From contig NZ_JOJE01000036.1 of NCBI RefSeq assembly GCF_000720255.1, positions 1 to 64,000 on the forward strand: DNA of 64,000 nt. The letters are read 5' to 3'. The position numbers and the translations under genes were made by a program. Position 1 is the first letter of the stretch. The number at the start of each line of letters is the position of its first letter. Origin of the DNA: Streptomyces griseus subsp. griseus (lineage in GTDB: Bacteria > Actinomycetota > Actinomycetes > Streptomycetales > Streptomycetaceae). Below the pieces are notes generated by a model. That model had not been told where the DNA came from, did not search any database, and worked only from the letters and a program-made list of their open reading frames with translations. This document shows positions 14,281-47,830 of this stretch, in pieces.

Positions 14281-14886
14281 CGACGCCTCCACAGACCCGT
14301 GGACAACCAGTGCACCGCACGAACGGGTCACCATGCTGCCACGAAGAACGGCGCACAGAGGGGCGGCGGAGCCGCTTGTGATCCAGGAAGTGCCGGGCGG
14401 CCCGCACGGTCGCGTCGACCTGAACACGCAGGCGGGAGGCGGTGACTTCGACTCGAATGCGCCCCCAGTACGCTCCCCGAAAACGCCCTTCGCGCCCTCA
14501 ACTTCCGTGGTGAGAGCGGTAATCCCATACGAAGGACAGGGGCGATTTTCGGCCAAATCGAGGACATGCGGCGGCCGTCACGGCGAGCGCGCACACGCTC
14601 CGTACACAACCCCGCGCACCGCCCGACGGGTGCGCAGCCCGGGAGGCGGAGCACGCCTCCCGGACCGGTCCGCCGCCCGCGGGGATGTAGGCGGCGGTGT
14701 CCCCCAGCCCACTGGATCCAGTACAGCGGGCCGACCCACGCACGAGCCATGGAACCGCTCCCCCACTGGCCGGAGAAGAGCGCACGGCCGGGCGCACAGC
14801 CACACAACGGGAGCACGTGGCAACGGTGTGTAGGTGAGCCCGCACTTCAGTACGGACCACAATCCCGCCATCCGGAAGAATGCCCC
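14281..14886. other. Long divergent intergenic region, no supported gene
   Basis: About 600 bp between the asparagine-synthase-like gene (minus) and the sporulation-associated gene (plus). Open frames here do not resemble any family I recognise and have no good ribosome sites. It should contain the minus-strand promoter of the asparagine-synthase-like gene, but I cannot pick a convincing -35/-10 pair. Confidence 0.4.
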
Positions 14887-21265: not shown

Positions 21266-22297
21266 TCAGGGGTTGAGCCCCTTGCCGCGCAGCCACGCCA
21301 TCGGGTCGATGCCCGAGCTGCTGCCGCCGGGGTGGACCTCCAGGTGGAGGTGGGCGCCGGTGACGTTGCCGGTGGCGCCGACCCGGCCGATGACGTCGCC
21401 CGTGCCGACCTTCTGGCCGACGCTGACGTTGATGGAGGACTGGTGGCAGAACCACAGCTCCGTACCGTCGTCGAGGGTCATGATCGTGCGGTAGCCGTAC
21501 GAACCGGCCCAGCCCGCCTCGGTGATGGTGCCGCTGTGGATGGCCTTGATGAGCGTGCCGGTGGGCGCGGCGAAGTCGAGGCCGGTGTGGTAGCCGGAGG
21601 ACCAGTACGAGCCGGCCTGACCGAAGGTCGAGGTGATGGTGTACGAGGAGGTCGGCAGCGTGTACTGCTTGGCCAGCTCGGCGAGACGCTCGGCCTCGGC
21701 CTTCCGCTCGGCCTCTTCCTTCGCCTTCTTCTTGGCGGCCTCGGCCTTGGCCTTGGCCTCCTGCTCGGCCTTGTTGGCGGCGTCGGTGGCGGCCTTGGCG
21801 GCCGCGGCCTCGGCGGCGGCCTGGGCCTTGCTCTCGATCTGGCCCTGCTGCGACTCGGCCTGGGCCATGATGCGGCTGCGCAGCGACTCACCGGCGTCGG
21901 TGGCGCTCTGGGTGGTGGTGTCGGTGTCGGCGCCGACGCTGCTGAGGGCGTCCGCGGCGTCCTTGGCGGTGTCCTCGGTGTCGTCCGTCAGCAGCGAGCC
22001 GACGGAGGGCAGGTCGGGTATGGAGATGGAGACCGGCGGCTTGCCGGTGTTGGCGCTGGCGATGCCGCCCGCGCCGACGGCGGCGATGACGCCCACGCCC
22101 AGGACGGTGGAGCTGCGGGCGAGCCCGCCGCGCTGCTTGGCGACGCGGTGCCGGCCACGTACCGGGCGAATGGATTCCGCGGTGGGGTTCCACTCCTCCC
22201 AGGGGCCCTCGTCGGTGCGGTAGTCGCCGTAACCGAAGGTCTCGGTGCTGCGGCGGCTCGGCGCGGGGGCCTCGGGGGCAGGCGGGTTGGACGCCAC
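21266..22297 (-). CDS. M23-family cell-wall endopeptidase (LytM type)
   Basis: A 343-residue secreted or membrane-tethered hydrolase. A polar N-terminus is followed by a hydrophobic segment (about 66-82, VLGVGVIAAVGAGGIASA) that works as signal or anchor. An Ala/Glu/Lys-rich coiled coil follows (about 140-215), then the M23 domain (about 225-340) with zinc-site motifs GYHTGLDFAAP and HLHLEVHPGG. It should cut peptide cross-links of peptidoglycan during growth, germination or sporulation. The GTG start at 22297 has AGGAG 9 nt before it. The leader contains a ydaO-type c-di-AMP riboswitch, which puts this hydrolase under second-messenger control like other Streptomyces cell-wall hydrolases. Confidence 0.9.
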   Translation of the reverse strand: MASNPPAPEAPAPSRRSTETFGYGDYRTDEGPWEEWNPTAESIRPVRGRHRVAKQRGGLARSSTVLGVGVIAAVGAGGIASANTGKPPVSISIPDLPSVGSLLTDDTEDTAKDAADALSSVGADTDTTTQSATDAGESLRSRIMAQAESQQGQIESKAQAAAEAAAAKAATDAANKAEQEAKAKAEAAKKKAKEEAERKAEAERLAELAKQYTLPTSSYTITSTFGQAGSYWSSGYHTGLDFAAPTGTLIKAIHSGTITEAGWAGSYGYRTIMTLDDGTELWFCHQSSINVSVGQKVGTGDVIGRVGATGNVTGAHLHLEVHPGGSSSGIDPMAWLRGKGLNP

Positions 22298-22321
22298 GAA
22301 GGCGTACTCCTTTCCTTCCGT

Positions 22322-22465
22322 GACGCCTACCGGGTTAGCTGACGGGTTCGGAGCGGGAAGGTCTCCTACGCGCGTATACCGGCCGTGAGTTCACGGCGGC
22401 ATCCACGTGATTCACCCCAAGGTGGTGGTTCCCCGGTTCCCTTGCGGGATTCGGCGCGTGAGCAC
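22322..22465 (-). promoter_or_regulatory. ydaO/yuaA-type c-di-AMP riboswitch in the M23 peptidase leader
   Basis: Read on the minus strand, the leader has the conserved blocks of the actinobacterial ydaO element: CCGAATCCCGCAAGGGAACC with GGGGAACCACC near the 5' end, CTTGGGGTGAATC, then GAGACCTTCCCGC, GAACCCGTCAGCTAACCC and GGTAGGCGTCAC near the 3' end. It ends about 10 nt before the AGGAG site. From the family, c-di-AMP binding lowers expression of the downstream hydrolase. Boundaries are approximate because no covariance search was run. Confidence 0.82.
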
Positions 22466-22563
22466 GGAGCCGCCTCTTGTGACGGCTGGGACGACCGCGC
22501 TGCGTTATCGAACGTTAATAGACAGTGGGTCAGGTTTCCAAGCTGTTCCGCTTGATCATTAAC

Positions 22564-30652: not shown

Positions 30653-33600
30653 TCACCCATGAGTGGCGAACAACCGGTGCAGCGGCACCACCCTCAGTGC
30701 CTCCGGCGGAACCTGGGCAACCAGCCACGTGTTGCCTCCGGCGTACCGGCATTCAAGTCCCGCGGGGGCAGGGACGCACAGCAGGACGCTCGGACCGTGC
30801 CGCCTCCCGGCGCTGAGGGCCGCGGCACGGTCACTCGTCAGATGGACCCACTGCCGGGTCATCGGCCGCAGCCCCTCGCCCCGCTCGAAGATGCTGCGCA
30901 GGGCGGCGGTGGGCGTGCAGTGGTAGAGCGGAGTCTCCGGCTGCCGGATCTCGTACTCGATGGCCGCGGGTCGCGAGTGGCCGTAACGAGCGCGGACGAG
31001 ACCTTCCCGGACCTCGAAGCGCGTCTCGGTCACCGCACGTGCCACGCTGATCAGTTCGTCGGCGGAGACCCTGAGCTTGGGTTCGAGCGTCGTCACCAGG
31101 GTGTCGACCGGCACCCAGCCCTGGTCGTCCCGCGTGATCCCGGGGTCGTGGCGGAGGTGGTAGGCCAGCGTACGGCTGATGCGGCGCCTACGGCCGTCCT
31201 TGAGCTCGCGCAGCGGAGCGTCACCGGGGGTGCCGCGTCGCTCCGCCCAGGCATCGCGCAGCCTGATCGCCAGATCGCGCAGGGGATCGGGCTCAGGGCA
31301 GCGCTGCGGGTCGTCGACCAGGGGCGGCGAACACATCTCGTCCAGGAGTGCTTCGCCATGCTCGCGGACGCCCGGTCCACCCGTGCGGTCGCTCAGACAG
31401 CGCACCGCGCGGACCAGCAAGGAAGCCCGGTAGGCGGTCCACAGCTTCTCGACATCGACGGCCGGGGCACCCTGGCAGCACGACAGCGCCTCCACATAGG
31501 CCATGACCACCTCACGGCGCAGGTCCCAACGGCCCACCGGGAGAGCCGGCACGTCGTCGGTCAGCTGGGCGAGCTCGTATCCCATGGGGCGCCAGCGTGA
31601 CGCCTCCAGATCGACCGCGACGATCCGGTCGGTGTCGGTCACCAGCCAGTTGAAGGCGTGGGCGTCCCGGCGGGGCTGTGGCGGAAGGGCGGTCACGTCC
31701 AAAAGCGCCCACCATTCCTCGAAGAGCGCGTTGGCGTCGCTGGGCGGCTCGTCGGGCAGGATCGCCCGCAGCCACATCCGCACCTCGTTGCGCACTTCCT
31801 TGCGTACGCCCTGGACCGGAGACCGGGGCGTACCGCAGGATCCGTGCACGTAGGCGAGGAACTTCGCCGTGCGTTTGAGCAAGCGGCAGGACGCCTCGGG
31901 CAGGGTGGGTGACAACCGGTCGGCGAGCACCGTGCCGTGCTCGAAGCGGCGCACGGAGATGATCTCCGTACCGTCCGGGAACTGCTCCTCACCGTGCGGC
32001 AGGTCGGCGACCGAGATGGTGGTGATCAGGTCGATGATCCCGAACTCGCCCTCGGCCCCCATGCGTTGCAGCATCCGCTGCACCGCGGCCGACTTCTCGG
32101 TGTCGCGGTCGAAACAGAGCTGCGTCGTCGGTTTGAAGACCAGAGTGGAGTTGGTGAACCCCAGGTAATCGTCGACGGTCACGACGTTGCTGCGACCGCC
32201 GAGGTTGCGGCGCACCAGGTCGGGGCTGCTGATCGCCCGGTCGGCGGCGCGCTCGTAGAAGAAGCCCGGATTGCCGTCCGCGACCGCCTGGATCCACCCG
32301 TCGGTCTGCGGTACGTCGCCCAACTGGGCGCGCATCGCTCCTTGTTCGGCCTGGCTGACGGTCACGCTGCCCTTTTCGAGCTCCCGGCCGAGCCTGACGA
32401 GCGGAACGCAGGAGGTGGTGTTCGTCCCCGTCTCCCGGACCAGTCGGGTGATCCCCTCGAGCCAGAAGGACCGGTTGTCCCGCAACGCGGCCGCGGCCAG
32501 GAGATCGTCGGCGTACCGTATCCGGCTGAGTTCGTCGGTCAGCGGCCCGGCCTTGACGATCGAACCGTCCTGCAACCCGAGCGCCGTGCGCAGCAACTTG
32601 TCACGGTCCATCTCGCCGATGTCCTCGAGCTGGACGTACGCCCTGAGGCAGTCGGACAGGAGTCGGCGATGCAGCGGTTCCGTGGAGGACAGGAAGCGGC
32701 TCTGCAGGTCATGAACGAGCACGGCCGGAAGTTCCACCGCCGGATGGCCGGCCTCCGCGAACCGGCGTAGGTGCTCACCGAGTCCGAAGGGGTTGTTGAG
32801 CCGCCGCAGACCGAGTCGTATCTGCGGGAGCAGCGCCGGTGCCCTGCGGGCTGCGGCGGCCACACAGAACAGCAGCGCGTGCTGCACGGCCTCGCCACCG
32901 CTCGGCTCCCCGGCGGACCTGAGCGCTTTCTCGGCATGTCGCAGGTAGATCTCGAAGTTGTCGTCCTTACCCATGCCGTCGGCCAGCCGCAGCCAGACCT
33001 CGGCCATGAGCAGGTGCCACGTGGTGCCGCGCAGTTCGGTGGGGAACTCCCGGTCGGTGCGGACGGCTCTGCCGAGGTACTCCCGGTTCCCCGTGTGATC
33101 GTGGAGCCGCAGGTAGCACTCCAGGAGATAGGGGACGGCGTCCGCGGCGGGGTTCCCCTCGACGATCGAGACCCGGAACTGTTCTGCCGACGCCTCCAGA
33201 TCCGCGACGCCGACCTGTTCGAACCGCGCCAGAAGCACCGCCGCCTGCCCCAGCCGGCCGGAGAACTGGAGCTTGCTCCTGGTGTCGGTCAGGTCGCTGT
33301 CCGCGACCACGTGAACCAGGTAGGCCCGCGCCAGGCGCAGCGCCCGGCAGAAGACCACCGGGCGCCGCCAGTTGATGGACAGGGCGTGGTCCCACAGGGA
33401 AAGGGCGACACGCTGCCGGACCACATGGAGCGTCTTGGCGTACCGCATGCGCGCAGGCATGCTGGTCGCGGCCTGGGCCGCGAACCGGCACAGATTGCAC
33501 TCGAAGACGAACGCCTCAAGGACCAGGATGGACTGGTCGTAGGCGTTCAAGACGTCCTTCCAGGCGGTGAGGACGAGCGTGGGATCGCTGTCCGCGTCGA

Positions 33601-33952
33601 GGACCCCGTGCACCCAGTCCGCGCCACGGCGCTGGATCCACTCGCCCATCAAGGCGTCCAAGGAGTCGCAACCGATCCACCGCAGTAACTGGACGACCTC
33701 CGGGTAGCGTTGCTCCAGGAGTTCGTTGAGAACCTGCTTGGACGGCGCGGGCCGGAGGGATGTGGGCTGTGTGCTCGGGACGATCTTCCGCCCCGGTTTG
33801 GTGGCCCTCCGGGCCACGTCCAGCGGAGTGACTCTGTTCTGCACGGCGCCCCCGTCGTCCACGCACCAGCCGCCCCCGGCCCAAGGCCGAAAAGCTCCTG
33901 AGAGACTGCGAGTGTAGCGTCCGTCACAGTTGGTGGAGGGCAACATGCTCAC
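30653..33952 (-). CDS. Helical repeat - APH-like kinase - KptA/Tpt1 RNA 2'-phosphotransferase fusion
   Basis: A 1,099-residue cytoplasmic protein with three parts. Residues about 70-580 are helical TPR-like repeats. Residues about 590-860 resemble an aminoglycoside-phosphotransferase/RIO-like kinase: a strand lysine in LVFKPTT (about 607), the catalytic loop RRDAHAFNWLV with Asp and Asn at the canonical spacing (about 760) and VAVDLEAS in the place of DFG. Residues about 920-1098 are a KptA/Tpt1 domain: RTLAYHLRHDPG, RARYGHS, MTRQWVHLTSD and GRRHGPSVLL supply the Arg-His-Arg-Arg set that uses NAD+ to remove RNA 2'-phosphates. Kinase and phosphate remover in one chain suggest writing and erasing of an RNA mark, or phosphorylation coupled to ADP-ribosylation. 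The start is uncertain: GTG 33952, or GTG 33844 behind a TACACT (33916-33911). No partner gene is adjacent. Confidence 0.72.
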   Translation of the reverse strand: MSMLPSTNCDGRYTRSLSGAFRPWAGGGWCVDDGGAVQNRVTPLDVARRATKPGRKIVPSTQPTSLRPAPSKQVLNELLEQRYPEVVQLLRWIGCDSLDALMGEWIQRRGADWVHGVLDADSDPTLVLTAWKDVLNAYDQSILVLEAFVFECNLCRFAAQAATSMPARMRYAKTLHVVRQRVALSLWDHALSINWRRPVVFCRALRLARAYLVHVVADSDLTDTRSKLQFSGRLGQAAVLLARFEQVGVADLEASAEQFRVSIVEGNPAADAVPYLLECYLRLHDHTGNREYLGRAVRTDREFPTELRGTTWHLLMAEVWLRLADGMGKDDNFEIYLRHAEKALRSAGEPSGGEAVQHALLFCVAAAARRAPALLPQIRLGLRRLNNPFGLGEHLRRFAEAGHPAVELPAVLVHDLQSRFLSSTEPLHRRLLSDCLRAYVQLEDIGEMDRDKLLRTALGLQDGSIVKAGPLTDELSRIRYADDLLAAAALRDNRSFWLEGITRLVRETGTNTTSCVPLVRLGRELEKGSVTVSQAEQGAMRAQLGDVPQTDGWIQAVADGNPGFFYERAADRAISSPDLVRRNLGGRSNVVTVDDYLGFTNSTLVFKPTTQLCFDRDTEKSAAVQRMLQRMGAEGEFGIIDLITTISVADLPHGEEQFPDGTEIISVRRFEHGTVLADRLSPTLPEASCRLLKRTAKFLAYVHGSCGTPRSPVQGVRKEVRNEVRMWLRAILPDEPPSDANALFEEWWALLDVTALPPQPRRDAHAFNWLVTDTDRIVAVDLEASRWRPMGYELAQLTDDVPALPVGRWDLRREVVMAYVEALSCCQGAPAVDVEKLWTAYRASLLVRAVRCLSDRTGGPGVREHGEALLDEMCSPPLVDDPQRCPEPDPLRDLAIRLRDAWAERRGTPGDAPLRELKDGRRRRISRTLAYHLRHDPGITRDDQGWVPVDTLVTTLEPKLRVSADELISVARAVTETRFEVREGLVRARYGHSRPAAIEYEIRQPETPLYHCTPTAALRSIFERGEGLRPMTRQWVHLTSDRAAALSAGRRHGPSVLLCVPAPAGLECRYAGGNTWLVAQVPPEALRVVPLHRLFATHG

Positions 33953-34045: not shown

Positions 34046-34462
34046 TCAGTGGACGGTGAAGCCACCCTCGACGGGGAGAGCTGTTCAGGTGACGAAGCCG
34101 ACGCCGGGGCTGCACAGCCACAGGACGGCCGCCGCGACCTCGTCCGCGCGCCCCAGTCGGCCGATGGGCTGTTCCTTGATGATCCCGGCCATGGCCTCGG
34201 CCTGGTTCTCGACCATGTCGGCGACCATCGGGGTGTCGATGACGCCGCAGCACACGGCGTTGATGCGGATGCCCCGGGGCGCGTACTCGACTGCGGCGCT
34301 GCGGGTCAGGCCGATGACGCCGTGCTTGGAGGCGTGGTAGGCCGCACGCTCGGGCAGCCCGACCAGCCCGACCAGCCCGCCCAGGGGCGAGCAGTTGACG
34401 ATGGCGCCGCTGCCCTGCTCCCGCATCTGCCGCAGTTCGTGCTTCATCGCCGCCCAAACACC
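34046..34462 (-). pseudogene. Short-chain dehydrogenase fragment with an internal TGA
   Basis: The frame keeps the SDR catalytic region (Ser in NCSPLGG, YHASKHG with the Tyr-x-x-x-Lys pair, then PRGIRINAVCCGVIDTPM) but the N-terminal nucleotide-binding half (TGxxxGxG) is gone; sequence before about 34462 is unrelated. Near the C-terminus the expected GFVT-G-TALPVEGGFTVH is interrupted: the glycine codon GGA reads TGA (34087-34085 on the minus strand), while the rest of the tail stays in frame to a second stop at 34046. A nonsense change plus the missing half make it a pseudogene. Confidence 0.8.
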
Positions 34463-34642
34463 GGCAGCGTCGGGCAGCCACCGATTCGTCCGCCGGCGTC
34501 CCAGCCGATCCGCAGACGACGGGCACATCCGCTCACGCATCGCTCACGCGTGCATCCGAAGACGAAGCAGCGCCCGACCCGACCGAAGCCGAGTCAGGCG
34601 CTGCGTAGCAGGTCAGAGGCCATAACCTCCGCCCGCCATCGG

Positions 34643-34715
34643 TAGGCCCTGTGGGACTCGAACCCACAACCAATGGATTAAAAGTCCACTGCTCTGCCAA
34701 TTGAGCTAAGGGCCC
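34643..34715 (-). tRNA. tRNA-Lys (TTT)
   Basis: 73 nt. Anticodon loop CTTTTAA gives TTT. The 7-bp acceptor stem GGGCCCT pairs with AGGGCCT, with a G1-U72 wobble. The T-loop is TTCGAGT. CCA is not encoded. Confidence 0.95.
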
Positions 34716-41654: not shown

Positions 41655-41727
41655 GCCCTCATCGTCTAGCGGCCTAGGACGCCGCCCTTTCAAGGCGGTA
41701 GCACGGGTTCGAATCCCGTTGGGGGCA
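41655..41727 (+). tRNA. tRNA-Glu (TTC)
   Basis: 73 nt. Acceptor GCCCTCA pairs with TGGGGGC with one wobble. Anticodon loop CTTTCAA gives TTC. T-loop TTCGAAT. First gene of a three-tRNA cluster. Confidence 0.95.
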
Positions 41728-41764
41728 CGCAACACCGTGTGCGACACTGTCGTACGCACAGCTT

Positions 41765-41839
41765 GGTCCTGTGGAGCAGTTTGGAGTGCTCGCCACCCTG
41801 TCAAGGTGGAGGCCGCGGGTTCAAATCCCGTCAGGACCG
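41765..41839 (+). tRNA. tRNA-Asp (GTC), first copy
   Basis: 75 nt. Acceptor GGTCCTG pairs with CAGGACC. Anticodon loop CTGTCAA gives GTC. Identical to the copy at 47457. Confidence 0.95.
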
Positions 41840-41863
41840 CTGAGGTTTCCCCGGAAGCCTCGT

Positions 41864-41937
41864 GGCTGGGTAGCTCAGTTGGTACGAGCGGCCGCCTGAA
41901 AAGCGGCAGGTCGCCGGTTCGATCCCGGCCCCAGCCA
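41864..41937 (+). tRNA. tRNA-Phe (GAA)
   Basis: 74 nt. Acceptor GGCTGGG pairs with CCCAGCC. Anticodon loop CTGAAAA gives GAA. T-loop TTCGATC. Last gene of the cluster. Confidence 0.95.
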
Positions 41938-41942
41938 CAGTC

Positions 41943-41972
41943 AAGGCCCCGATCTTCGGATTGGGGCCTTTT
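41943..41972 (+). terminator. Terminator of the tRNA cluster
   Basis: AAGGCCCCGATC pairs with GATTGGGGCCTT around a TTCG loop and is followed by further Ts, directly after tRNA-Phe. Confidence 0.85.
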
Positions 41973-42054
41973 GCATGCCCGGTGACCGACTCGCTCGCAG
42001 TACGAGCGATCGCGTCCGCTGCCGAAGAAGATCTCCCCGGCTTGCAGCTCGCCC

Positions 42055-42073
42055 CCGCCGATGGCTTCGGCGG
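42055..42073 (-). other. Hairpin just past the TnpB stop codon (possible guide-RNA or terminator structure)
   Basis: CCGCCGA and its complement TCGGCGG around a 5-nt loop lie 18 bp after the tnpB stop on the minus strand. In IS200/IS605-type elements the omega RNA covers the 3' end of tnpB and the right end, so this could be one of its stems. It could also be a simple terminator. Confidence 0.3.
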
Positions 42074-42090
42074 TAGCGGCGCATCCAGCC

Positions 42091-43263
42091 CTACGCGGTC
42101 AGCGTGAGGGCAGGGACCTGTGACTCGGCCCCGCGGACCCACGCCGACCAGCCGCGGAGGCTGATGGTGTGGGACGCGTTCAGGTCGGCGTGCTCAACGA
42201 AGCCGCAGGACCTGCAGGTGAAGACGGCCTGGCGCGGCCGGTTGCGTTTGTCGATGTGGTGGCAGCGGGAGCACTCCTGGCTGGTGTACGCCGGGTTCAC
42301 GTACACCACGGGGACTCCGGCCCTCCGTGCCTTGTACGCGATGAATTCGGCGAGCTGGCCGAAGGCCCAGGAGTTCATCGTGACGCGTTGGGGCTTTTTC
42401 AGCCGTGCCCGTTCGCGGATGCCGCCCAGGTCTTCGAGGGCGATTCCGCGTCCGGTGCGTTGAGCCTCCGCCACGATGTGCTTGCTGATTTTGTGGTTGA
42501 TGTCACGGGTGCGTCGGGCTTCCTTGCCCGCGTGGCGCTTGGCTCGCCGCTTGGCGCTGCGTGTGCCCTTCTGCTGGAGTCGGGTGCGGAGCTTCCGGTC
42601 GTTCTCGCGGGTGCGGTTCAGCCTTCTGCCGCTGTGCCGGTGTCCCGTGCTGGTGGTGGCGATGTTGGCGATGCCGAGGTCGACACCGATGAATCCCTGG
42701 GGGTCGGGGTTCACCGCGGGTTCGGGGATGTCGAGGGTGGCGAGGAGGTACCACTGGCCGCCTCGGGTGATCAGGTCCGATTCGCCTCGGCGGTACTGGT
42801 CGAGGAGCTGGAGCTGGTGCTCGCTTCCGGTGTAGGGGAGGCGCTTCAGTCGGCCTGCCGTGGTCCAGATGGAAACGGTTCGCTGCTCTGTCTGCCAGGA
42901 CAGCATGCGGTCGTCGTAGGGCTGGGCGGCCGTCGGGCGGAAGACGACGGGTTTGCCGGTGGCCGCCTTGTACGGTTTCGACCCTGGCCGGCCGAGGATT
43001 CCGGCCCTGAGGCTGCCCTTCAGTGCCGCGTACGCGTCGCAGGTCTTCTTGATGACGTGCTGGGCGGCTTGGGCGCCGAGGCCCCAGGTGCTCTTGACCT
43101 GGGTGTAGGTCTCGGCGCGGAGCGCGCGGTTGTCCTTGGTCCCCGTCGCGTGGGCGATGGTCGAGACGTGGTTGGCGGCCTGGTTGCAGGCGTGGAGGGT
43201 CGCTTGGAGTGCCGATGCCTGTTCGGGCGTCGGCAGCAGCTTCACCTGCACCACGAGCTTCAC
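42091..43263 (-). CDS. tnpB: TnpB-like RNA-guided nuclease / IS200-IS605 OrfB protein
   Basis: A 390-residue TnpB. The RuvC-like active site is complete: GVDLGI (Asp), ALEDLG (Glu) and HADLNAS (Asp). The zinc ribbon CSRCHH to CRSCG sits between the last two. Basic helices (RLQQKGTRSAKRRAKRHAGK) would hold RNA. TnpB proteins are omega-RNA-guided DNA nucleases that help retain the transposon. No tnpA transposase is nearby, so this is a solitary (IS1341-like) copy. I chose the GTG at 43263, where family homology (KLVVQVKLLPTPEQ) begins; the frame is open to 43386. It lies between the tRNA cluster terminator and hrpA, transcribed against both. All catalytic residues are kept, so the gene may be functional. 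Confidence 0.87.
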   Translation of the reverse strand: MKLVVQVKLLPTPEQASALQATLHACNQAANHVSTIAHATGTKDNRALRAETYTQVKSTWGLGAQAAQHVIKKTCDAYAALKGSLRAGILGRPGSKPYKAATGKPVVFRPTAAQPYDDRMLSWQTEQRTVSIWTTAGRLKRLPYTGSEHQLQLLDQYRRGESDLITRGGQWYLLATLDIPEPAVNPDPQGFIGVDLGIANIATTSTGHRHSGRRLNRTRENDRKLRTRLQQKGTRSAKRRAKRHAGKEARRTRDINHKISKHIVAEAQRTGRGIALEDLGGIRERARLKKPQRVTMNSWAFGQLAEFIAYKARRAGVPVVYVNPAYTSQECSRCHHIDKRNRPRQAVFTCRSCGFVEHADLNASHTISLRGWSAWVRGAESQVPALTLTA

Positions 43264-43418
43264 GAACAGGGAATCTAGATCGCTGTGTGTGTTCGGCCGG
43301 AAGGAATCAGAACATCTCAGCAGAAAGGGTGACGACCCGAACATACAGACCCGATCCGCGCCGCCGGAGGCAAAAGCGTTCGCCATGAAAATCTCGGGGG
43401 TGAGATCCTGGGTTCCGT

Positions 43419-46400
43419 ATGTCTACGCACCCTGCCCCCGCCTTCGGCGCCCTCGCTCCCCGTCTGACCGAGTTGTCCCTGCGTGATGCGCAGCGGCTCG
43501 GACGCCGGCTCGAAGGTGCGCGCAAGATCCGTAAGCCCGAGGCTCGGGCCGCCGTTCTCGCTGAGATCGAGGCGGAGGTCGCCAAGGGCGAGTCCCGTAT
43601 GGCTGCGCGCGCGGCGCGTGTGCCGGCGGTGAGCTACCCCGAGCAGTTGCCCGTCAGTCAGAAGAAGGACGACATCGCGGCGGCGATCCGTGATCATCAG
43701 GTCGTCATCGTGGCCGGTGAGACGGGTTCGGGCAAGACGACGCAGATTCCGAAGATCTGTCTTGAGCTCGGGCGCGGGGTCAAGGGGATGATCGGGCATA
43801 CGCAGCCGAGGCGGATCGCCGCGCGGACGGTGGCCGAGCGGGTGGCGGAGGAGTTGCGGACGCCGCTCGGGGAGGCCGTCGGCTGGAAGGTGCGGTTCAC
43901 GGACCAGGTCGATCCGGAGGCCACGTTCGTCAAGCTGATGACGGACGGCATCCTGCTGGCGGAGATCCAGACGGACCGCGAGCTGCGCGCGTACGACACG
44001 ATCATCATCGACGAGGCGCACGAGCGGTCTCTCAACATCGACTTCCTGCTGGGTTATCTCGCGCAGTTGTTGCCGCGTCGGCCGGACCTGAAGGTCGTCA
44101 TCACGTCGGCGACGATTGATCCGGAGCGGTTCTCGCGGCACTTCGGTGATGCTCCGATCGTCGAGGTGAGCGGTCGGACGTATCCCGTGGAGGTGCGTTA
44201 CCGGCCGCTTCTGGAGGAGGACTCGGAGGACTCCGACCGGGATCAGATCACCGCGATCACGGATGCGGTGGAGGAGCTGATGGCGGAGGGGAAGGGCGAC
44301 ATCCTCGTCTTTCTCTCCGGGGAGCGGGAGATCCGGGACACGGCTGACGCGCTCACGAAGAAGCAGTACAGATTCACCGAGGTGCTGCCTCTGTATGCCC
44401 GGTTGTCGCATGCCGAGCAGCATCGTGTGTTCCAGCCGCACACCGGTCGCAGGATCGTTCTGGCCACCAATGTCGCCGAGACGTCGCTGACGGTGCCGGG
44501 GATCAAGTACGTCATTGATCCCGGCTTCGCCCGGATCTCGCGGTACAGCCATCGGACGAAGGTCCAGCGGCTGCCGATCGAGCCGATCTCGCAGGCGAGT
44601 GCCAATCAGCGCAAGGGGCGTTGTGGCCGTACGAGCGACGGTGTGTGCATCCGGCTGTACTCGGAGGACGACTTCGAGGCCAGGCCGGAGTTCACGGACG
44701 CTGAGATCCTCCGTACGAATCTCGCGTCGGTCATCCTGCAGATGACCGCCGCCGGCCTCGGTGAAATCGAGAAGTTCCCGTTCATCGACCCGCCGGACCA
44801 TCGCAACATCCGTGACGGCGTGCAGCTCCTGCAGGAGTTGAGTGCGCTGGATCCTGCCCAGAAGGATCCGCGCAAGCGGTTGACGCAGACGGGCCGCAAG
44901 CTGGCCCAGCTGCCGGTCGACCCCCGGCTGGCGCGCATGGTGCTGGAGGCCGACAGGAACGGCTGTGTCCGCGAGGTCATGGTCATCGCGGCCGCGCTGT
45001 CCATCCAGGATCCGCGCGAACGCCCGGCCGACAAGCAGGCCCAGGCCGATCAGCAGCACGCCCGTTTCAAGGACGAGACGAGTGACTTCCTCGCGTATCT
45101 GAATCTGTGGCGGTATGTGCGTGAGCAGCAGCGGGAGCGCGGTTCGTCGTCGTTCCGCCGGATGTGCAAGCAGGAGTATTTGAATTTCCTGCGGATCCGG
45201 GAGTGGCAGGACATCTACTCGCAGCTGCGGACGGTCGCCAAGCAGATGGGCATCCACCTCAATGAGGAGGACGCCCCGGGTGACCGGGTCCATGTGTCGC
45301 TGCTCGCGGGTTTGTTGTCGCACGTCGGCATGAAGGATGTGAAGGACGGCAACAAGAACGAGTACCTGGGTGCGCGGAACGCGAAGTTCGCGATCTTCCC
45401 GGGTTCGGCGCTGTTCAAGAAGCAGCCGCGTTTCGTGATGTCCGCCGAGCTGGTGGAGACCTCCCGGCTCTGGGCCCGTGTCAACGCCAAGATCGAGCCG
45501 GAGTGGGTGGAGCCGCTCGCGGGTCATCTGCTGAAGCGGACGTACAGCGAGCCGCACTGGGAGAAGGACCAGGCGGCGGTGATGGCGTTCGAGAAGGTCA
45601 CGTTGTACGGGGTGCCGATCGTCGCGCAGCGGAAGGTGAACTACGGGCGGATCGATCCGGAGGTGTCCCGGGAGCTTTTCATTCGCAATGCTCTGGTCGA
45701 GGGTGACTGGCGTACGCATCACAAGTTCTTCGCCGACAACCGCAGGCTCCTCAGTGAGGTGGAGGAGTTGGAGCACCGGGCGCGGCGCCGGGACATCGTG
45801 GTCGATGACGACACGCTCTTCGACTTCTACGAGCAGCGGGTGCCGGAGCATGTGGTCTCGGGGGCGCATTTCGACTCGTGGTGGAAGCGCAAGCGGCATG
45901 AGCAGCCGGACTTCCTGGACTTCGAGCGGGAGATGCTGATCCGGGAGTCGGCGGAGGCGGTCACGAAGGCCGACTATCCGGACTCGTGGCGTCAGGGGCC
46001 GCTGAAGTTCCGGGTGACGTATCAGTTCGAGCCGGGTGCGGATGCGGACGGTGTGACGGTCCATGTGCCGCTCCAGGTGCTGAATCAGGTGACGGACGAG
46101 GGCTTCGACTGGCAGATCCCGGGGTTGCGGGAGGAGGTCGTGACCGAGTTGATCCGGTCCCTGCCCAAGCCGATCCGCCGTCACTACGTCCCGGCTCCGA
46201 ATTACGCGAAGGCGTTCCTGGAGAGGGCGGTGCCGTTGCAGGAGCCGCTGACGGTGACGATGGCGCGTGAGTTGAAGCGGATGGTCGGAGTGCCGTTCAC
46301 CGCGGACGACTTCGACTGGTCGAGGGTTCCCGACCATTTGCGGGTGACGTTCCGGATCGTGGACGAGCGGCGTCGCAAGCTGGCCGAGGACAAGGATCTG

Positions 46401-47363
46401 GAGACGCTGAGGCTCCGGCTGAAGCCGAAGGCCCGCCAGGCGCTGTCGCAGGCCGCCGCAGCGACGGCGGAGCGGCAGGGCGGTGAGTCGTTGGAGCGCC
46501 AGGGGCTGACCGACTGGACGATCGGCTCCCTGACGCGGGTCTTCGAGACGCGTCGTGCCGGGCAGCCGGTGAAGGCGTTCCCGGCGCTGGTGGACGACGG
46601 TGACACGGTTTCCGTGCGCCTTTTCGATACGGAGGCCGAGCAGGCCGAGGCGATGTGGAAGGGCACGCGGCGGCTGATCCTGCGGAACATCCCGGTCAAT
46701 CCGGGGAAGTTCGCGTCGGAGAAGCTCACGAACGCGCAGAAGCTGGCGCTGTCGGCGAATCCGCACGGTTCGATCCAGGGGTTGTTCGACGACTGCGCGA
46801 TGGCTGCGGCGGACAAGCTGATCGGGGATTTCGGTGGGCCGGCGTGGGACGAGGAGTCGTTCCGGAAGCTGTTCGACAAGGTGCGTGCGGAGATCGTGGA
46901 CACGACGGTTCGTACGGTGGGGCAGGTGCAGCAGGTCCTGGCGGCCTGGCAGGCCTGTGAGCGCCGTCTGAAGGCCGTACGGAGTGCTGTGCTGCTGCCG
47001 AACCTCCAGGACGTGCGCAAGCAGTTGGACGGTCTTGTGCGGCCTGGTTTCGTGACGGAGGCGGGGTTGCGCCGACTGCCGGATCTGATGCGGTACTTGG
47101 TGGCGGCGGACCGGCGGTTGCAGCAGATGCCGACGAACGTCCAGCGGGACTCCACGCGTATGGAGAAGGTCCATGAGATGCGGGACGAGTACGCGTGGCT
47201 GTTGGAGCAGATGCCCCAGGGGCGGCCGGTGCCCTCCTCGGTGCTGGAGATCCGCTGGATGATCGAGGAGCTGCGGGTGAGCTATTTCGCGCACGCTCTG
47301 GGTACGGCGTATCCGGTGTCGGACAAGCGGATCGTGAAGGCGATCGACGCTGCCGCGCCGTGA
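43419..47363 (+). CDS. hrpA: ATP-dependent DEAH-box RNA helicase HrpA
   Basis: A 1,314-residue DEAH/RHA helicase. The motifs run in order: GETGSGKTTQIP (I, about 99-110), TQPRRIAA (Ia), DEAH (II), TSATID (III), LATNVAETSLT (V) and QRKGRCGRTSDG (VI). The helicase-associated winged-helix and OB region follow, then the long HrpA-specific C-terminal domain (about 700-1310). HrpA unwinds RNA and in E. coli rescues stalled or collided ribosomes and affects mRNA processing; that function is assumed here. The length matches the family. It is flanked by tRNA genes on both sides, all on the plus strand except the intervening tnpB. No ribosome site is obvious before the ATG at 43419. Confidence 0.95.
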   Translation: MSTHPAPAFGALAPRLTELSLRDAQRLGRRLEGARKIRKPEARAAVLAEIEAEVAKGESRMAARAARVPAVSYPEQLPVSQKKDDIAAAIRDHQVVIVAGETGSGKTTQIPKICLELGRGVKGMIGHTQPRRIAARTVAERVAEELRTPLGEAVGWKVRFTDQVDPEATFVKLMTDGILLAEIQTDRELRAYDTIIIDEAHERSLNIDFLLGYLAQLLPRRPDLKVVITSATIDPERFSRHFGDAPIVEVSGRTYPVEVRYRPLLEEDSEDSDRDQITAITDAVEELMAEGKGDILVFLSGEREIRDTADALTKKQYRFTEVLPLYARLSHAEQHRVFQPHTGRRIVLATNVAETSLTVPGIKYVIDPGFARISRYSHRTKVQRLPIEPISQASANQRKGRCGRTSDGVCIRLYSEDDFEARPEFTDAEILRTNLASVILQMTAAGLGEIEKFPFIDPPDHRNIRDGVQLLQELSALDPAQKDPRKRLTQTGRKLAQLPVDPRLARMVLEADRNGCVREVMVIAAALSIQDPRERPADKQAQADQQHARFKDETSDFLAYLNLWRYVREQQRERGSSSFRRMCKQEYLNFLRIREWQDIYSQLRTVAKQMGIHLNEEDAPGDRVHVSLLAGLLSHVGMKDVKDGNKNEYLGARNAKFAIFPGSALFKKQPRFVMSAELVETSRLWARVNAKIEPEWVEPLAGHLLKRTYSEPHWEKDQAAVMAFEKVTLYGVPIVAQRKVNYGRIDPEVSRELFIRNALVEGDWRTHHKFFADNRRLLSEVEELEHRARRRDIVVDDDTLFDFYEQRVPEHVVSGAHFDSWWKRKRHEQPDFLDFEREMLIRESAEAVTKADYPDSWRQGPLKFRVTYQFEPGADADGVTVHVPLQVLNQVTDEGFDWQIPGLREEVVTELIRSLPKPIRRHYVPAPNYAKAFLERAVPLQEPLTVTMARELKRMVGVPFTADDFDWSRVPDHLRVTFRIVDERRRKLAEDKDLETLRLRLKPKARQALSQAAAATAERQGGESLERQGLTDWTIGSLTRVFETRRAGQPVKAFPALVDDGDTVSVRLFDTEAEQAEAMWKGTRRLILRNIPVNPGKFASEKLTNAQKLALSANPHGSIQGLFDDCAMAAADKLIGDFGGPAWDEESFRKLFDKVRAEIVDTTVRTVGQVQQVLAAWQACERRLKAVRSAVLLPNLQDVRKQLDGLVRPGFVTEAGLRRLPDLMRYLVAADRRLQQMPTNVQRDSTRMEKVHEMRDEYAWLLEQMPQGRPVPSSVLEIRWMIEELRVSYFAHALGTAYPVSDKRIVKAIDAAAP

Positions 47364-47456
47364 TCGGACGCGTACGGTGGGTGAGTTCGACCAGCGGGCT
47401 CACCCTCCTGTAGAGTCCTTCTCGCAGCGCAACGCACGAGTAGCGCCGCGAAACCT

Positions 47457-47531
47457 GGTCCTGTGGAGCAGTTTGGAGTGCTCGCCACCCTGTCAAGGTG
47501 GAGGCCGCGGGTTCAAATCCCGTCAGGACCG
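47457..47531 (+). tRNA. tRNA-Asp (GTC), second copy
   Basis: 75 nt, identical to the copy at 41765. A TAGAGT -10 hexamer with an extended TG motif lies at 47411-47416. The last 18 nt are repeated twice more downstream. Confidence 0.95.
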
Positions 47532-47830
47532 CATAGATGAGCTGAGGCCCGCATCCCCGAGGGGTGCGGGCCTCAGTCGCGTCCGGGCACGGGAAGGGCC
47601 GCGCCCGCGGCGCAGCCGCGATCGGACACAGCAAATCCCGTCAGGACCGCATAGATGAGCCGAGGCCCGCATCCCGCGAGGGGTGCGGGCCTCAGTCGCG
47701 TCCGGGCACGGGAAGGGCCGCGCCCGCGGCGCAGCCGCGATCGGACACAGCAAATCCCGTCAGGACCGCACAGTTGAGTGAGGCCCGCGGCCCCGCGAGG
47801 GGTGCGGGTCGTCTCAGTCGTGTTCGGCCT
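47514..47830 (+). repeat. Tandem repeats of the tRNA-Asp 3' end plus terminator (about 118 bp, 2.7 copies)
   Basis: CAAATCCCGTCAGGACCGCA, the 3' end of tRNA-Asp, begins at 47514, 47632 and 47751. Each copy continues with a hairpin (GAGGCCCGC pairing with GCGGGCCTC) that acts as a terminator. Copies one and two are nearly identical over the full 118-119 bp; copy three diverges after its first 20 bases and ends near 47830. No integrase gene is present. Confidence 0.88.

Follow-up and report, generated by a model that had tools for sequence, protein, structure and literature searches.

A mobile-looking actinobacterial gene that joins a helical region, an APH-type kinase and a Tpt1/KptA domain in one protein

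The stretch of DNA analyzed here (the window) comprises 64,000 nucleotides of Streptomyces griseus subsp. griseus (contig NZ_JOJE01000036.1, positions 1 to 64,000). The subject of this study is a gene on its minus strand that encodes a single polypeptide with a helical region at the N-terminus, a kinase domain in the middle and an RNA 2'-phosphotransferase domain (Tpt1/KptA) at the C-terminus. The gene and its parts are located as follows.

30653..33844, minus strand: the complete fusion gene, 1063 amino acids, with a probable GTG start at 33844 and the stop at 30653-30655.
32276..33739, minus strand: N-terminal TPR-like helical superhelix, about residues 36-523, assigned by fold.
31274..32269, minus strand: kinase domain of the APH family, about residues 526-857, assigned by PF01636 on the isolated region, by model and fold search and by invariant residues.
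Within 31274..32269, minus strand: the kinase landmarks, namely the LGGRS loop, K571, D727, H729, N732 and D745.
30674..31198, minus strand: Tpt1/KptA domain, residues 883-1057, with the tetrad R898, H899, R942 and R997 and the NAD+-site residues H975, T977 and R1015.

The open frame in the window extends over 30653-33952 on the minus strand, and the initial annotation had placed the start at 33952. Because the homologues begin at residue 37 of this longer frame, the GTG at 33844 was preferred, and the earlier start is probably 108 bases too far upstream. The same annotation had read the gene as one protein with a helical region, a kinase and a KptA domain. Profiles, an AlphaFold2 model and fold searches confirmed this order, with an intact kinase fold and an intact Tpt1/KptA domain on one polypeptide, and the fused three-part protein is real. 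All three regions were modelled by AlphaFold2, with a mean predicted local distance difference test (pLDDT) score of 87.5. The helical region of about 490 residues is TPR-like by its predicted fold only, and no TPR profile in Pfam was matched by the full-length window protein. That it is more than a product of chance is shown by a first protein search, which returned 22 further proteins, 21 of them with KptA and one (P0024) without it.

The C-terminal part of the window protein matched PF01885 at E=2.6e-20 (score 73.6 bits, cut-off 26) and the KptA of Thermococcus (9ld4) at E=7.8e-27, with 38% identity over 169 residues, and the predicted model contains the two-lobe Tpt1 fold. Against the NCBIfam equivalogs for RNA 2'-phosphotransferase (PRK00819), the best score was 112.7 bits, where 231 are required. 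Judged by its sequence, this part belongs to the Tpt1/KptA family and lies outside the narrower NCBIfam equivalog groups. In an alignment to the Tpt1 of C. thermocellum (CthTpt1), whose residue roles were taken from the relevant passages of PMC6333775, R898, H899, R942 and R997 correspond to R18, H19, R68 and R121. The Arg-His-Arg-Arg set that had been noticed earlier is present, but its third and fourth Arg are R942 (in TRFEV) and R997 (in TRQWV) and do not lie in RARYGHS and RRHGPS, where they had been placed. The domain is basic, with an isoelectric point (pI) of 10.0 in the window protein (family median 9.5, range 5.8-10.9), and it is the sole basic domain, as opposed to an acidic kinase. 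Whereas ordinary KptA stands alone and is roughly 160-230 residues long, here it forms the C-terminus of a 1063-residue chain and is separated in a tree from the stand-alone KptA of the window's family (Streptomycetaceae).

The APH family PF01636 gave no match when the full-length window protein was scanned; the isolated 356-residue kinase region matched it with 24.3 bits (cut-off 23.2), and 13 of 19 rows scanned, the window's included, matched it at E<=1. A fold search with the predicted kinase model points to the APH/choline-kinase fold, and its matches include 5-methylthioribose kinase and macrolide 2'-phosphotransferases, which phosphorylate sugar hydroxyls. The fusion kinase resembles the APH/choline kinase superfamily in the profile match of the isolated region, the fold and the catalytic residues, and differs from it in a conserved RRDAHxxNW and LGGRS signature and in its position between a helical region and KptA. 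The initial annotation had also likened this kinase to archaeal ArkI, a comparison that did not hold at the sequence level. As described in the passages of PMC9095486 on this protein, ArkI is a eukaryotic-kinase-like AQ578 protein with HGQ and DFE, while the fusion kinase is by sequence of the APH type and has the usual catalytic Asp, the window protein reading RRDAHxxN and DLE; the catalytic-loop HGQ and metal-loop DFE of ArkI were not found in it. ArkI was absent from the 50 fold matches listed for the kinase model, which is still compatible with a structural likeness.

Conservation was assessed in an alignment of 35 fusion-only rows (A4), made up of 14 sequences taken from loci and 21 proteins of the first protein search, among them that of the window. 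It does not contain P0005, the broken L019, the Kitasatospora-like loci L004-L006, any KptA-less relative or repeats such as L002 and L015; one of its rows (P0017) is missing much of the helical region, and two others (P0006 and L074) share 98% identity. In the kinase, G549, G550, K571, D727, H729, N732 and D745 were invariant in all 35 rows, in agreement with the APH-like kinase with Lys, catalytic Asp, Asn and metal Asp (K571, D727, N732 and D745) described at the outset. In the KptA domain, R898, H899, R942, R997, H975 and R1015 were likewise invariant, and residue 977 was Thr in 32 rows and Ser in three. No loss of the KptA catalytic residues was seen in these homologues, the tetrad being kept in 35 of 35. 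The likeness to known Tpt1/KptA proteins consists of the fold, the tetrad, the NAD+-site His and a Thr or Ser at position 977. The rows in which both active sites are kept include a divergent member with 23% identity (L077). Six pairs among six sequences of the Streptomyces/Kitasatospora group gave ratios of nonsynonymous to synonymous substitution (dN/dS) of 0.19-0.32 for the helical region, 0.12-0.39 for the kinase and 0.12-0.29 for KptA. By this measure all three regions of the fusion are under purifying selection in the pairs tested, and since this held for each region in all six pairs, the three parts are maintained in that group.

The fusion is rare and patchy across many actinobacterial genera. 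Nineteen loci in named genomes were found in Streptomyces (4), Nocardiopsis, Actinoplanes, Micromonospora, Haloactinopolyspora, Nocardioides, Curtobacterium, Cryobacterium, Promicromonospora, Rathayibacter, Leifsonia, Demequina, an Actinomycetales isolate, metagenome-assembled genomes of Acidimicrobiaceae and Thermobaculum, and Actinophytocola, the last with a kinase without KptA; members from Kitasatospora and Clavibacter were seen in the first protein search. Among 297 Streptomycetaceae genomes, in a count that scored two candidates per genome, four carry the fusion (G000, which is the window's own genome, G137, G213 and G237) and two carry a KptA-less kinase. A kinase search of 396 genomes of the phylum gave two matches at E<=1e-12, the own genome included, and a kinase-only model run against 293 genomes of the order gave six, namely three fusions and three KptA-less kinases. 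Nine pattern matches in viral contigs included no relative of the fusion. Among plasmids (20 records) and phages (63 records) no match reached 80% query coverage, and the 15 rows listed for either set all matched the KptA part only. A split version, with a kinase gene beside a KptA gene, was also sought by tblastn at L117-L120 (regions around stand-alone KptA), L109, L080 and L081, where only the KptA part was matched. In Demequina (L019:9782-12793) the fusion gene is probably broken, because it is split over two frames. The only addition from a second protein search (alignment A1), P0025 of 568 amino acids, gave no family matches; it resembles the fusion in the helical region only (47% identity), its C-terminus being unrelated, and is perhaps a truncated or frameshifted fusion copy.

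The surroundings of the gene were then considered, and two further features lie directly beside it.

34641..34715, minus strand: tRNA-Lys beside the fusion, an integration hotspot as judged from the occupancy of the same site in relatives.
34085..34540, minus strand: short-chain dehydrogenase between the tRNA-Lys and the fusion, C-terminal part only (adh_short_C2 positions 105-225 of 236).

The dehydrogenase fragment is probably a remnant, likely of an earlier insertion. The fusion of L002 adjoins the same tRNA-Lys as that of the window, and the fusion was absent from this site in all four relatives examined. In one of them (G290) the next gene follows the tRNA after about 70 bases, and in another (G009, L122:7598-9996) the site holds a phage-type integrase gene (PF00589, E 4.6e-9) and many small genes. 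No duplicated tRNA-Lys end of 16-30 bases was found in the window. At other loci, mobile-element genes lie near the fusion: a phage integrase (L011), a TrwC relaxase with a resolvase (L013) and a TrwC relaxase (L017). Third-position GC, computed on genes from a simple custom gene caller, was lower in the fusion than in the listed neighbors in Rathayibacter (0.57 versus 0.91-0.97), in Nocardioides (0.67 versus 0.92-0.97, with one neighbor at 0.78) and in Micromonospora (0.69 versus 0.94-0.96, three neighbors); it was not lowered in L002 (0.96) and only slightly lowered in the window (0.88). With a foreign-looking codon usage in several hosts and a tRNA hotspot, the fusion gene looks mobile, that is, horizontally moving.

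Ordinary kptA appears to be missing from some of the genomes that carry the fusion. Stand-alone kptA is present in 263 of the 293 fusion-free genomes of the family. Model A1 was matched in 267 of the 297 family genomes; four of these matches are the fusions and two the KptA-less kinases, and the others among the matches listed are confined essentially to the KptA part. The window's own genome has one PF01885 match, which is the fusion itself. At the site where the relatives L080 and L081 have stand-alone kptA, the flanks in this genome (C11:91494-93372 and C11:93430-93870) are separated by 57 bases, compared with 624 in L080, and the ordinary gene looks cleanly deleted. G237 and G681 retain a flanking gene and lack stand-alone kptA, G137 and G213 possess it, and G683 has none, with a flank too diverged to judge. 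In total, four of six family carriers are without stand-alone KptA, versus 30 of 293 others (Fisher p 0.0018). The six combine a systematic sample of four, which alone gives two of four (p 0.059), with two found by another search; G000 and G681 share an insertion site, so that not all carriers are independent, and the thresholds differ (PF01885 at E<=0.001 for carriers, model A1 at E<=1e-10 for the others). Displacement of ordinary kptA by the fusion is suggestive only on these genome comparisons. Outside the family, 10 of the 13 carriers that were searched have no KptA other than the fusion, but given the rarity of KptA in those genomes this carries little weight.

The origin of the fused domain was examined in a KptA tree of 78 sequences, 35 fusion domains and 43 stand-alone or outgroup sequences (L025, L036, L063 and L064, with an internal stop or too short, were left out). 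The 35 fusion domains formed one side of a branch that is not firmly supported (64/99), and a different group (88/92) held the stand-alone KptAs from the family of the window. Since the two are in separate groups, any replacement came from a distant KptA lineage. As the only KptA of the window strain, the fusion may do whatever ordinary KptA did.

The kinase core also occurs without KptA, and four such genes were examined in DNA. In two of them, L078 and L079, a gene for a SMODS-associated NUDIX protein (PF18167; E 2.5e-33 and 3.8e-33) lies directly upstream on the same strand, and both NUDIX proteins open with a hydrophobic stretch by eye. The NUDIX protein of L078, the one scanned, matched PADLOC models for CBASS 2TM effectors (2.4e-18) and DRT RTasNUDIX (1.1e-13), and the L078 kinase matched no PADLOC model. 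These pairs, each a helical-APH kinase without KptA downstream of the NUDIX gene (L078:6929-10374 and L079:9069-13329), look like an undescribed two-gene conflict system. The third KptA-less kinase (L108:8051-11917, 1118 amino acids) is preceded, 63 bases upstream, by a gene whose 148-residue product has no family match and, by eye, an apparent membrane anchor; a 1690-amino-acid helicase and further proteins without family matches were seen nearby. In the fourth (L020) the 5' side is ambiguous. The fusion loci differ from the SMODS-associated NUDIX systems to which these two cousins are linked: no relative of the L078 and L079 NUDIX proteins was found in the fusion loci examined (tblastn at E<=1e-4 hit L078 and L079 only), and no such gene adjoins the window's fusion. 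Three cousin genomes searched (G232, G166 and G695) each have stand-alone KptA, near the base rate of the window's family.

The window fusion itself matched no PADLOC family at E<=1. Defense-type genes were seen beside fusions at several loci: a type IIG restriction enzyme across a 32-base gap on the same strand at L017 (E 2e-264), mad7 (8e-91) and mad8 (2.5e-39) upstream at L010, a methylase with a type II restriction enzyme at a distance of about 3.5 kb at L018, and a cytosine methylase about 5 kb away at L019. A CHAT-domain neighbor at L007 matched no PADLOC model. Since these neighbors were picked by eye, with no matched control loci, a conflict role is suggested rather than proven. Related proteins of about 1050-1080 amino acids with low third-position GC stand beside the fusion at L004:14018-17167 and L005:6336-9575; they have no or only weak restriction-endonuclease-like matches, and the one at L004 matched no PADLOC model. 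A conserved operon partner was sought by comparing gene neighbors at 26 loci (L015 was left out, L075 and L076 repeat L005 and L004, three are KptA-less relatives, and L009 and L014 are short), and no adjacent gene family recurred beyond close relatives. Some gene clusters occur in more loci at varying distance from the fusion, one in four and one, of MarR type, in six.

As the likeliest single reading, though with rather less than even confidence, we tentatively propose that the fusion is a mobile enzyme, probably involved in stress or conflict, in which the kinase phosphorylates a target, most likely RNA, and the attached KptA transfers that phosphate to NAD+. The TPR-like superhelix would recognize a partner or trigger. 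The APH-fold kinase would use ATP to phosphorylate an acceptor group, most likely a ribose hydroxyl in RNA, with tRNA as the first candidate. According to the relevant part of PMC6333775, the 2'-phosphate in the Tpt1 reaction attacks NAD+ and ADP-ribose cyclic phosphate is released. The fused KptA, of which the intact active site is what was observed here, could pass the kinase-placed phosphate to NAD+ in this way. Writing and erasing would need separate control, with the helical region tipping the scale between them during stress or phage attack; what we infer here is the conflict role, the sequence of reactions and RNA as the substrate. The proposal has a parallel in archaea, where the 2'-phosphate at position 47 of tRNA is put on by ArkI and taken off by KptA, as reported in the part of PMC9095486 concerned. 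In both cases a kinase and KptA would act on one RNA phosphate, if RNA is the substrate; the fusion differs in having both predicted activities on one chain, together with a helical region. The invariance of both active sites in 35 of 35 rows, the purifying selection and the position of the fusion as the sole KptA of its strain speak for the proposal. Further points in its favor are the shared, though not firmly supported, branch of the fusion KptA domains, the sugar-hydroxyl kinases among the fold matches, and the kinase route to a bacterial 2'-phosphate considered by the CthTpt1 authors (PMC6333775).

Several observations weigh against it. The kinase domain is acidic (pI 5.3 in the window protein; family median 5.7, range 4.8-9.3), so that direct binding of bulk RNA by it is not obvious, and its nearest solved relatives are mostly small-molecule kinases. 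In the passages of PMC7159879 on conflict systems, a few active APH-like kinases are noted, without KptA, and low-molecular-weight substrates are suggested for them. Because the kinase core occurs without KptA, it need not make a KptA substrate. Nor is a 2'-phosphate required by KptA, since SCO3953, the KptA of S. coelicolor, ADP-ribosylates RNA 5'-phosphate ends according to the relevant part of PMC11833690. No operon partner points to a substrate, and a writer and an eraser on one chain would cycle futilely without regulation. Our confidence is kept from being higher by the acidic, APH-type character of the kinase, by the predominance of small-molecule kinases among its solved relatives and by the occurrence of the core in the absence of KptA.

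A rival explanation is a conflict module. Its helical-kinase part would be a switch with a target that is not RNA, for example a protein, a nucleotide or a product of the invader, and the effector would be KptA, which would either ADP-ribosylate RNA ends or take off 2'-phosphates. Different effectors could be attached to the same core, and the NUDIX protein of the KptA-less cousins, apparently anchored in the membrane, would be one of them. The NUDIX genes beside two of the four KptA-less relatives, one with CBASS and DRT matches, the restriction, mad and methylase neighbors at L017, L010, L018 and L019, and the 5'-phosphate activity of the Streptomyces enzyme SCO3953 in the source cited above are in its favor. 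However, those neighbors were chosen without an enrichment control, PADLOC models matched neither the fusion nor the L078 kinase and left the L007 CHAT protein and the L004 neighbor unmatched, and the fusion loci examined lack a NUDIX relative. We consider this explanation unlikely, though one to be taken seriously. A role in RNA repair is improbable. Here the kinase would phosphorylate the 5'-OH of broken RNA ends, and KptA would clear the 2'-phosphate that a ligase or cyclic phosphodiesterase leaves at the junction or terminus. KptA has been linked to repair with 2H enzymes and ligases in the part of PMC9503650 concerned, and the fusion is the only KptA in the window strain. Against this, no adjacent gene family recurs beyond close relatives, and no ligase family was found among the neighbors scanned with Pfam. 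Moreover, the polynucleotide 5'-kinases known to us are P-loop enzymes, unlike the APH-type kinase of the fusion.

If both sites share an acceptor, an ATP- and NAD+-burning cycle would follow from the Tpt1 chemistry described in that part of PMC6333775: the kinase would phosphorylate an RNA carrier, KptA would strip it with NAD+, and the RNA would be regenerated, until NAD+ is drained or ADP-ribose cyclic phosphate accumulates in abortive infection. Some defense-type neighbors and the NUDIX-linked cousins agree with such a cycle, but the same architecture fits a slow, regulated modification, and we regard it as very unlikely. We also offer, as a speculation with a low chance of being correct, that the helical-APH kinase is the core of an undescribed bacterial conflict family with exchangeable outputs, either an NAD+-consuming KptA in cis or, in trans, a SMODS-associated NUDIX protein that is apparently anchored in the membrane. 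Once the helical region has sensed a trigger, the kinase would phosphorylate RNA or a nucleotide, and the fused KptA would turn the phosphate over with NAD+ as a reversible RNA switch or as a cell-stopping drain on ATP and NAD+. If true, bacteria would have, besides their ArkI homologues, another and unrelated kind of RNA 2'-kinase, the first to carry its eraser within one polypeptide.

Returning to the tentative proposal of a kinase that supplies its own KptA, the fusion may indicate one way in which bacteria come by RNA 2'-phosphates. Tpt1/KptA is widespread in bacteria, a presence that the CthTpt1 authors, in the 2019 passages on this subject (PMC6333775), called a longstanding conundrum; among the possible sources of substrate they named a kinase that phosphorylates an internal 2'-OH. 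The initial annotation had noted that bacteria lack the tRNA splicing that supplies Tpt1 substrates, but to say that they lack any 2'-phosphate source is too strong: bacterial ArkI homologues phosphorylate tRNA, as stated in the part of PMC9095486 concerned. Some bacteria thus have a known source, and the claim of a new one is tempered for this reason. A different kinase fused to KptA, with intact sites in all 35 rows and in a strain without ordinary kptA, is a concrete protein for assay of the 2'-kinase idea, and the NUDIX-linked cousins offer a possible route into anti-phage signalling. The first-search proteins carry the source names 'RNA 2'-phosphotransferase' or 'hypothetical protein', and since such names mention no kinase, the kinase appears to have been overlooked. 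No earlier description of a kinase-KptA fusion was found among the literature matches listed, and an earlier mention is possible.

Other features were observed elsewhere in the window. A cluster of tRNA-Glu, tRNA-Asp and tRNA-Phe lies at 41655-41938, and a second tRNA-Asp at 47457-47532, about 5.5 kb beyond. An IS605 OrfB/TnpB-like gene (42091-43263) and an HrpA-type helicase (43620-47363) lie between these tRNAs, and the region 41655-47532 is possibly an insertion flanked by a duplicated tRNA. A c-di-AMP riboswitch (22309-22466, 99.4 bits) was found just upstream of a peptidase M23 gene (21266-22297), and an Scr4115 RNA at 14633-14741.

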